From NCBI RefSeq assembly GCF_040744945.1, contig NZ_CP160453.1:7316001-7380000 (forward strand): a stretch of 64,000 bases of DNA. Reading direction: 5' to 3'. Within the stretch, counting starts at the first letter, position 1, and each line of letters starts with the position of its first letter. This DNA is from Saccharothrix sp. HUAS TT1. GTDB taxonomy: Bacteria > Actinomycetota > Actinomycetes > Mycobacteriales > Pseudonocardiaceae. The notes under the pieces are model-generated. The model was not told the origin of the DNA. It saw nothing but the letters and a program-made list of their open reading frames with translations, and ran no database searches. Of this stretch, positions 8,155 to 39,618 are shown piece after piece. Position numbers and translations under genes: made by a program.

Positions 8155-8271
8155 GGAGAAGTCTCCCTCGTCATCGTCGACGGGCGGACCTGGAAGTGCG
8201 CGGCGATCGGAGCCTGTCGGCACGGTAGCCACCGGCGGCGGCGAGCGTCAACGCTCAAAGTTGCTAAAGTT

Positions 8272-8283
8272 GTGAACGCTAAC
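8272..8283. promoter_or_regulatory. LacI-type operator, site 1
   Basis: Core GTGAACGCTAAC, a 10/12 match to GTTAGCGCTAAC, with the central CG typical of LacI-family operators. A GCTAAA half-site starts 9 bases earlier (8263). It lies 118 bases upstream of the dehydrogenase start and is the exact reverse complement of the core of site 2. Confidence 0.75.
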
Positions 8284-8370
8284 TAGAAACCGGACCGGCG
8301 GTTTTGCCTTTTGTGGTGCCGTTTCAGCCGTCGAATGGTGATTCGATGAGGTCAGGCCGTTGCTAAAGAT

Positions 8371-8382
8371 GTTAGCGTTCAC
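8371..8382. promoter_or_regulatory. LacI-type operator, site 2
   Basis: Core GTTAGCGTTCAC with GCTAAA beginning 9 bases before it (8362). It lies 124 bases upstream of the GH95 start codon. Sites 1 and 2 are 99 bases apart centre to centre and probably control both divergent genes. Confidence 0.75.
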
Positions 8383-8505
8383 ATTAGCTGTCCCCGACGA
8401 TTGACGGTCAGGACCGCCGGTGGCTACGTTGCCCTGAGGCTCCGGTCGAGCGCGTTCGCGCAGGCTCCCGGCGCATCGGCCACCGTCCGCTCGGGAGGAT
8501 TCGGC

Positions 8506-38226: not shown

Positions 38227-39486
38227 ATGCGCAGCAGGGACTCCCGCGCGTCGAGGTCGGCCGCGCTGGCAGTGGCCGCGGCCCTCGTCGCGACGACCGG
38301 CGCCCTGATCGGCTCGCAGTCCGCGTCGGCCGCCGCGGGGTGCCGGGTCGACTACTCGATCGGCTCGCAGTGGCCGGGCGGTTTCAGCGCCGGCGTGGTC
38401 GTGACGAACCTCGGTGATCCGGTGGCCGGGTGGCGGCTGTCGTGGGCGTTCCCCGGCGACGAGCGGATCACGCAGTCGTGGAGCGCGTCCCACACCCAGT
38501 CGGGCGGCCAGGTCACCGCGGTCAACGCGGCGTGGAACGGCGCCATCGCCACCGGCGCGACGGCGTCGTTCGGCTTCAACGCCACGTCCGGCGCCCGGTC
38601 CACGCCCCCGTCGGTGTTCACCCTCAACGGCACGGTGTGCACCGGTTCGACCACGACGACCACGACGACCACCACCACCACGACCACCACCACCACGCCC
38701 CAGCCGGGTCGCCCCATGATCGAGAACAACTTCTCCGTCACCAGGGAAGGCGCCCACGGCGACAACCGCTTCACCGTGTTCCGGCCGGCCGCCCCGCAGG
38801 CGGTCGACCGCGCGCTCCCCGTGCTGGCCTTCGGCAACGGCGCGTGCGCCCACACCGACAACAGCGAGGTCACCCGGATACTGACGTTCATCGCCTCGAA
38901 GGGCTTCGTCGTGGTGGACACCGGCTCGGTCGACGGCTCGCCCAACGGCGTGCCGAGCGGGTCGCCCATCCCCTCCCTGCTGACCGACGCCATCACGTGG
39001 GCCGAGCGGGAGCAGCAGCGCTCCGGGGCGCCGCTGAGCGGGCGCCTCGACCTGGCCAGGGTGGCCACCGCCGGGCACTCGTGCGGCGGCTTGGAGGCCA
39101 TGGTCGCCGCCCAGGACCGCAGGGTGTCCGGTGTCGTCTCGCTGAACAGCGGGTTCTTCGCCGACGGCTCGTTCGGCTACCCGCGCTCCGAACTCCGCAA
39201 GCTGCACACGCCCGCCCTGTTCATGGACGGCGGCCCCTCCGACATCGCCTACGCCAACAACCAGGCCAACTACGACCTGGCCACCGTCCCGGCCGTGCTG
39301 GCCCGCCACCCGCAGGCCGGTCACGGCGGCTTCATCACCGGTGGCCAGCTGACCGACGGCATGACGACGGTGGTGCAGTTCCTCGACATGGTGCTCAACG
39401 GCAACCCGACGGCACGCGCCTACGTCCTCAGCCCGTCCGGCCTGGCCGCGAAGGCGCCCTGGGTGGTCGCCTCGAAGAACTTCTGA
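38227..39486 (+). CDS. Secreted CBM2 - poly-Thr linker - alpha/beta-hydrolase
   Basis: Secreted protein of 419 residues: signal peptide (about 1-37), CBM2 (about 38-138; two Cys, WRLSWAFPGDERITQSW), a linker of 16 consecutive Thr (142-157), then an alpha/beta-hydrolase (about 165-400). The nucleophile motif is GHSCGG. A likely acid is in MDGGPSDIAYAN and a likely His in QAGHGGF. The hydrolase resembles dienelactone-hydrolase or chlorophyllase-like esterases. The CBM suggests a cell-wall ester such as acetyl-xylan or feruloyl groups, but the substrate is not shown by the sequence. Confidence 0.85.
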   Translation: MRSRDSRASRSAALAVAAALVATTGALIGSQSASAAAGCRVDYSIGSQWPGGFSAGVVVTNLGDPVAGWRLSWAFPGDERITQSWSASHTQSGGQVTAVNAAWNGAIATGATASFGFNATSGARSTPPSVFTLNGTVCTGSTTTTTTTTTTTTTTTTPQPGRPMIENNFSVTREGAHGDNRFTVFRPAAPQAVDRALPVLAFGNGACAHTDNSEVTRILTFIASKGFVVVDTGSVDGSPNGVPSGSPIPSLLTDAITWAEREQQRSGAPLSGRLDLARVATAGHSCGGLEAMVAAQDRRVSGVVSLNSGFFADGSFGYPRSELRKLHTPALFMDGGPSDIAYANNQANYDLATVPAVLARHPQAGHGGFITGGQLTDGMTTVVQFLDMVLNGNPTARAYVLSPSGLAAKAPWVVASKNF

Positions 39487-39519
39487 CCGTCTCGGTGGAC
39501 AGCAGACTCGGCTAAATTT

Positions 39520-39531
39520 GTTAGCGTTAAC
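39520..39531. promoter_or_regulatory. LacI-type operator, site 9
   Basis: GTTAGCGTTAAC, with GCTAAA beginning 9 bases before it (39511). It is in the 295-base gap before the GH127 gene. Confidence 0.8.
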
Positions 39532-39606
39532 TTGAGCGGCGACGGCTCGCTCTTGTTTGATGCACCGAATAGCGCAATCTGGCGTCGAACATCTCCGCAC
39601 AGTCTT

Positions 39607-39618
39607 GTGAGCGTGAAC
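39607..39618. promoter_or_regulatory. LacI-type operator, site 10
   Basis: GTGAGCGTGAAC, in a 16-base context identical to site 6. It is 87 bases from site 9 and 164 bases before the GH127 start. Confidence 0.65.

Follow-up and report, generated by a model that had tools for sequence, protein, structure and literature searches.

The stretch of Saccharothrix DNA analysed here (the window, 64 kb of an 8.7 Mb genome) carries a cell-wall degradation island in which ten similar dyads recur in pairs. The locus raises the question of which repressor binds these sites, whether its reach ends at the island, and what the pairing signifies.

Putative operator cores in the window

All ten cores are located where the sequence-only reading had placed them, and the five pair spacings that it listed, of 99, 109, 130, 208 and 87 bp, are correct. 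Its description of them as CG-centred dyads of the LacI type also holds, the cores being even palindromes with a central CG in 10 of 10. They are paired and situated at carbohydrate-use operons with spacings suggestive of looping. The statement that they lie only in front of carbohydrate-use genes needs correction: the core at 26654 is within the last codons of the LacI gene 26642-27754. The core at 30901 starts 5 bases past the end of a permease frame (29313-30896). The sites are given below together with the flanking hexamers, here called arms, that accompany five of them.

8263-8268: GCTAAA, left arm of the 8272 core, which is without a right arm
8272..8283: AraR-type core in the interval that separates GSDH (-) from GH95 (+)
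8371..8382: AraR-type core preceding GH95, 99 bp from its 8272 partner
8362-8367 and 8383-8388: arms of the 8371 core, left GCTAAA and right ATTAGC (one mismatch)
21603..21614: AraR-type core lacking arms, before the importer (SBP 20202-, permeases)-GH43 genes (-)
21712..21723: the weaker core of this pair, with 17.1 bits, at 109 bp from 21603
26515..26541 (+): composite site with both arms complete, GCTAAA 26515-26520, core 26524-26535, TTTAGC 26536-26541; upstream of GH27 (24722-26410, -)
26654..26665: partner core (18.2 bits) at the end of the LacI gene
30892..30918 (+): composite site, likewise with both arms complete, GCTAAA 30892-30897, core 30901-30912, TTTAGC 30913-30918; distal site of the GH10 promoter
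31109..31120: GH10 (31216-32691) proximal site, a perfect core TTGTTAGCGCTAACAA of 29.8 bits, 208 bp from 30901
39511..39537 (+): GH127 distal site, a composite of GCTAAA 39511-39516, core 39520-39531 and, with one mismatch, the right arm TTGAGC
39607..39618: partner core (19.5 bits) in front of GH127, 87 bp from 39520

Counting the matches to GTTAGCGCTAAC with at most three mismatches in the window gave 15 against 11.4 expected, and 19 of 100 shuffles reached 15. Since mismatch counting revealed no excess over shuffles it was dropped as a test, and a 16-column matrix was trained on 14 strict sites of the same genome, all outside the window. The ten best matches of this independent matrix in the 64 kb were exactly the ten cores, scoring 29.8 to 17.1 bits, with the next-best match in the window at 12.7 bits. 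Simulated first-order Markov sequence contained a mean of 0.035 matches of 17 bits and a maximum of 1 in any of 200 runs.

Other features of the window were also recorded. Neither a tRNA nor an Rfam match was found in it. A plausible -35/-10 pair (TTGACG, 18 bp, TACGTT) occupies 8401-8430, after the 8371 core and before GH95, and in several relatives TTGAC is present just outside the left arm on the other strand. The frame at 38227-39486, between GH10 and GH127, encodes a CBM2 protein whose PETase-like/alpha-beta hydrolase match is weak, at E 1.9e-4 and under the cut-off.

Genome-wide sites and the candidate core binder

The sequence-only reading had inferred a single repressor for the island and proposed a genome-wide motif scan. 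The strict pattern GTKARCGYTMAC was found at 22 places in the 8.7 Mb, 6 inside the window and 16 outside it, and the control pattern, read backwards, at 0 places; the cores therefore also occur at many promoters outside the island, mostly those of plant-cell-wall genes. A matrix scan that included the window sites in training covered 16 stretches of the chromosome (the window and 15 others) and returned 35 sites of at least 17 bits. Among the 20 promoter regions counted in these stretches, 15 have two sites and five have one. The targets are mostly plant-cell-wall genes, together with araB and the LacI-family gene beside araD-araB. Neighbors of the sites outside the window include GH9, GH43, GH127, GSDH with gluconolactonase, GH3, GH27, GH51 with GH43 and a sugar ABC importer, and a LacI gene; in one further stretch (L069) the neighbors are a polysaccharide deacetylase and a protein without a Pfam match. 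The LacI gene in this set (L067 4710-5909, VSPSTVSYVLSGKR) is a different one with two cores 113 bp apart in front of it, an arrangement that perhaps reflects a regulatory cascade. The looser pattern GTKWRCGYKMAC, with 75 forward and 78 reverse matches against 7 and 6 for its reversed control, was dropped because it mixes in words such as GTGAACGTGCAC. Two strict matches, at 142059 and 1482909, were left out of the regulon, the flanking T/A being absent and the score 16.0 bits; no carbohydrate gene was recognized beside either when the neighbors were judged without a Pfam search. The best reading of these data is a putative plant-cell-wall regulon of the AraR/AraQ type that is chromosome-wide and not restricted to the island.

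The LacI HTH family is represented by 42 matches in the genome, and the likely binder of the cores is the one linked to araBD, not the LacI encoded in the island:

G000:C1:7482307-7483290: AraR/AraQ-type LacI-family gene beside araB and araD, ~102 kb past the window end

The neighboring araB was identified by TIGR01234 (814.5 bits, cut-off 583), and araD, a fragment cut by the end of the locus, has NF005123 as its best match (246.9 bits, cut-off 251). In the same genome one core precedes the araBD-linked LacI gene and one precedes araB. Cores are also found beside the repressor gene in most of the loci fetched from relatives. With a threshold of 18 bits, 25 of 30 loci have a site no further than 1.5 kb away, and in 15 of 30 a site falls in the 300 bp upstream; in 5 of the 30 loci of AraR-type proteins no such site was found within 1.5 kb. 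Core-rich genomes, defined by at least 5 forward GTTADCGHTMAC matches, numbered 19 of 100 family genomes, and an AraR-type protein was detected at E 1e-60 in 19 of 19, against 25 of the 81 other genomes.

These properties resemble those of known systems. Bifidobacterial AraQ binds CATTGTGAGC><GCTCACATCA, and the dyad of AraQ and MalR1 is of the same kind as that described here (PMC6882875). AraQ orthologues are linked to araBDA in other Actinobacteria and have in common with the present system the link to ara genes, autoregulation, here presumed, and many targets (PMC5928203). The present system differs from AraQ in that the targets are mostly secreted polysaccharide hydrolases, not central metabolism, and in that the operators are paired and phased, some being nested in what appear to be half-sites of a second repressor.

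One version of the single-repressor idea is that the LacI of 26642-27754 alone binds all ten cores and controls only the island. The gene is situated among the sites, and relatives of it are found in the islands of several related genomes. However, cores are present at many promoters outside the island, 91 of 349 sites are in genomes lacking the clade of this LacI, the 19 core-richest genomes all have an AraR-type protein, and the local LacI has a different CG-centred dyad of its own. Furthermore, its recognition helix reads VSTTTVSLVL, unlike the VSHQTVSRVL of the araBD-linked LacI. The local LacI is thus probably not the core binder, and this version as a whole is highly improbable.

A paralogue 80% identical to the araBD-linked LacI is encoded 12.5 kb before the window and has the same recognition helix, from which it follows that two proteins may share the cores. 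The helix VSHQTVSRVLNGHP is present in both, the paralogue gene is close to the island, and there is a precedent in Bifidobacterium breve, where AraQ and MalR1 have one common operator (PMC6882875). On the other hand, the 16 kb surrounding the paralogue gene (L073) yielded no core scoring 11 bits or more, in contrast to the araBD-linked copy, for which cores are present both at the gene itself and at araB. Joint use of the cores by both proteins is a serious possibility, to which we give slightly less than an even chance. The paralogue locus (L073 977-5076; G000:C1:7300976-7305075) lies between a GH6-CBM2 gene and a CBM2-esterase-like gene, and the protein is a possible cellulose-side sister regulator.

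Helical phase of the paired sites

The pairing was investigated with adjacent sites 25-330 bp apart, the stronger of at least 21 bits and the weaker of at least 17 bits, in the fetched loci apart from the short ones of the own genome. This gave 125 pairs, or 97 after merging similar spacer sequences, from 24 genomes. Chance partners are rare, as 527 kb of background contained 13 matches of 17 bits. The spacings concentrate around multiples of 11.0 bp, the phase being near zero (n = 97, R 0.53). Phasing was found in the own genome (n = 15, R 0.63), with the same result when only that genome's spacings were used, and in clusters without an own-genome member (n = 82, R 0.52). Jitter tests over periods of 10-11.8 put p at 5e-5, the lowest attainable value, with all pairs, at 0.0034 with the own genome alone and at 1e-4 with other genera. 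Pairs with an armed site are the best phased (n = 40, R 0.71; pairs without one, n = 57, R 0.41). Phasing is weak among pairs in which both sites are very strong (n = 14, R 0.26), and in six genomes that lack the second LacI clade it is no more than suggestive (n = 13, R 0.45).

Sequence composition or common promoter ancestry could also produce an 11 bp periodicity, and related promoters are indeed over-represented, for example in the group with spacings of 139-145 bp. Nevertheless, the phasing survives removal of that group (n = 84, R 0.50), the use of unique spacing values (n = 64, R 0.44) and restriction to other genera (n = 47, R 0.51), and permuted-matrix decoys on the same promoters show nothing comparable, 0 of 295 reaching the observed R (mean 0.18, highest 0.44). 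This explanation is accordingly very unlikely. The pairs are regulon-wide and helically phased, as would be expected of looping, which we infer.

The pairs are reminiscent of those of E. coli lac, where two operators on the same helical face are separated by loop-sized distances with a repeat near 11 bp, the loop data having been fitted with 11.08 and 11.60 bp per turn (PMC1762422). The present case differs in involving many promoters and many different spacings. It also differs in the protein: the 328-residue araBD-linked repressor can be aligned with positions 7-332 of LacI, a chain of 360 residues, and stops at that point. The tetramer helix of LacI lies beyond residue 332. In this alignment there is no room in the AraR-type protein for a C-terminal tetramerization helix of the Lac type; therefore, the bridge of any loop must be of another kind. 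In a survey of the LacI family, ~20% of regulated operons had more than one site, with intersite peaks at 13, 22 and 32 bp (PMC4052901). The peaks at 22 and 32 bp fit the helix step, as do the spacings reported here, but the latter are 40-314 bp. In the literature searched, which contained few subscription papers, neither phased AraR pairs nor nested LacI operators were the subject of any title or abstract encountered, and the string GTTAGCGCTAAC was not found. In the same literature we found no earlier report of operator phasing over the long range of 40-314 bp, short-range phasing being already known.

Putative nested half-sites and a second LacI clade

The plus strand of the window contains five copies of GCTAAA, each exactly 9 bp before a core (8272, 8371, 26524, 30901 and 39520), and three of TTTAGC, two of which are right arms and one part of a dyad near the LacI gene; the eight words are thus seven arms and one dyad half. 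Most of the five armed sites have TTTAGC or a near match on the other side of the core. The earlier idea of a single repressor for the whole island is not in accord with five of the ten sites carrying additional arms of the local LacI type; two repressors therefore probably meet there. The relevant features are:

26642..27754 (-): LacI-family regulator with an intact hinge helix
27820..27835: CG-centred dyad GCTAACACGTTTTAGC, between lacI and a divergent importer gene (27849-29201)

The dyad is predicted to be autoregulatory for this LacI, the closest named proteins of which are from Saccharothrix (87% to S. carnea, among the best 80 of 246 matches). The usual operator-like dyad of the clade is GCTAAMNCGNKTTAGC, CG-centred and located before the clade member's own gene. 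The GCTAAA arm is a half-site of that dyad, and in the composite sites the half-sites are about one helical turn further apart, around the core. The local LacI is the likely owner of the GCTAAA half-sites and not of the cores.

The distribution of the composite sites was determined with GCTAAANNTGTKWDCG, which has five matches in the own genome, all in the window. Of 200 family genomes, 20 contain the pattern, frequently as clusters in related islands, and 17 of the 20 have a true core; G066, G030 and G062, with the pattern and no operator-like core, were removed from the count. A clade member is present in 17 of the 17 genomes with a true-core composite and in 13 of the 183 others. The right arm, though outside the search pattern, is conserved, each of its six columns being kept in 22 to 28 of 33 sequences. 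Among 349 distinct sites, arms on at least one side were found at 61 of 258 in clade-bearing genomes and at 0 of 91 in genomes without the clade. Composites are present in G127 and G172, where the best clade matches are only 61% paralogues, and the co-occurrence of clade and arms may reflect linkage within islands rather than to the clade protein. Where one island has several composites they are mostly on the same strand, and their relation to the regulated gene varies.

In the 42 two-armed sites the hexamer starts are 21 (24 sites), 20 (11), 22 (4), 19 (2) or 23 (1) bp apart. The same hexamers are 10 bp apart in the dyad and 20-22 bp apart in 39 of the 42. The gaps between arm and core vary among sites, and the armed sample leans to a gap of 3 because part of it was found with a gap-3 pattern. 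Another reading, in which the left dyad GCTAAANNTGTTAGC would be a truncated operator for the local LacI and would have one half in common with AraR, accounts for gap 3 but not for the gaps of 2 and 1 that also occur; reading from arm to arm is therefore preferred.

CytR is the nearest precedent for this geometry, with half-sites at variable spacing that prefer whole turns, a flexible linker and a second regulator at the same site (PMC3454398, PMC5263246). The analogy is limited in that CytR acts beside CRP, while here the core between the half-sites appears to belong to a different LacI-family protein. For CytR, spacings of two or three turns were demonstrated to be possible but, according to PMC3454398, had not been seen in nature at that time.

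The arms might instead belong to another island regulator of a different family or represent an extended AraR contact, the match to the local LacI half-site being coincidental. Consistent with this, the two arms are twice as far apart as the halves of an ordinary LacI dyad, and the composite offers the arms no central CG, whereas a CG centre was reported for 1173 of 1303 LacI-family factors (PMC4052901). However, the arm hexamer is exactly identical to the conserved half-site of the clade's own dyad, the arms are restricted to genomes with the clade, and the clade dyad is lost wherever the hinge is degenerate. We regard this alternative as somewhat unlikely, and we infer a nested operator read by two LacI-family repressors.

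The clade was sampled at 80 named loci (the best 80 of 246), which are relatives and hence not independent counts, with the state of the hinge judged by our own sequence pattern. In this sample, members with an intact hinge have the dyad within ~320 bp upstream in 57 of 60 cases, the exceptions being S. coeruleofusca, Kibdelosporangium banguiense and Streptomyces zingiberis, and members with a degenerate hinge have it in 0 of 20. On the tree the hinge/dyad label requires 4 changes, at least 3, and some changes are possibly losses and some regains. For 22 of the 80 clade genes an armed core is no more than 6 kb away; all 22 belong to one supported branch of 23 named loci, mostly Saccharothrix, Lentzea and Umezawaea, where Actinosynnema pretiosum is the sole member without one. 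The absence of arms outside this branch is partly trivial since few cores are near clade genes there. Of the 22 armed loci, 15 have a degenerate hinge and no dyad, 6 combine an intact hinge with the dyad, and the remaining one, S. coeruleofusca, retains the hinge but not the dyad. In the other five loci with a degenerate hinge, Actinosynnema and four L073-type paralogues, neither dyad nor arms were found within 6 kb. A partner core near the lacI gene end is also found in relatives, at 130, 131, 112, 111 and 110 bp from the composite.

These patterns suggest, tentatively and at somewhat less than even probability, that the clade passed from an ordinary CG-centred dyad to a nested operator with half-sites two helical turns apart astride the operator of another LacI-family repressor. 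The hinge helix and old operator would then have been lost more than once, leaving proteins that dispense with the hinge-CpG contact and recognize DNA solely within the looped operator of the other repressor. Since the window's own LacI keeps its hinge, a hinge-poor clade paralogue of this genome (L073:11524-12561) is a candidate arm reader, and in this strain the arms may be read by it or by both proteins.

A third regulator is perhaps represented by the dyad ATGAGTNNNACTCAT, which has a GTNNNAC core and occurs in the window at 11432-11446 and 12413 and elsewhere at L073 11338 and 11495, L104 16193, L107 8786 and 19245, and L109 3568, 3672 and 19194. Its neighbors are a GntR/FCD gene (11548-12333), a ThuA-GSDH gene and the L073-type LacI genes of related islands. 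A GTNNNAC core is typical of operators of FadR-type GntR proteins. The dyad was considered as the operator of the clade paralogue; being also beside the GntR-type gene, it was assigned to neither.

Overall, we consider it reasonably probable that the ten sites are operators of the araBD-linked AraR/AraQ-type repressor, that the phased pairs loop, and that five of the sites also contain nested half-sites of the second clade. In this mechanism the araBD-linked repressor would control plant-cell-wall genes across the genome, its dimers on both sites of a pair and on the same face of the DNA closing a repression loop that an arabinose signal would open by releasing them. The second repressor, of the 26642-27754 clade, would grip the GCTAAA/TTTAGC arms together with AraR or in competition with it, and island genes with composite sites would answer to two sugar signals.

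If correct, these results make three things testable, the first being a chromosome-wide regulon of the arabinose type for breakdown of the plant cell wall in Saccharothrix and its kin. Natural operator pairs would, by their spacings alone, yield a repeat of 11.0 bp near that fitted to the E. coli lac loop. The clade would offer an evolutionary series in which a degenerate LacI hinge accompanies absence of the CG-centred operator while the nested half-sites stay. Such a series would reveal by what means a pair of related repressors may use a common operator and LacI proteins may depart from the DNA geometry usual for them.
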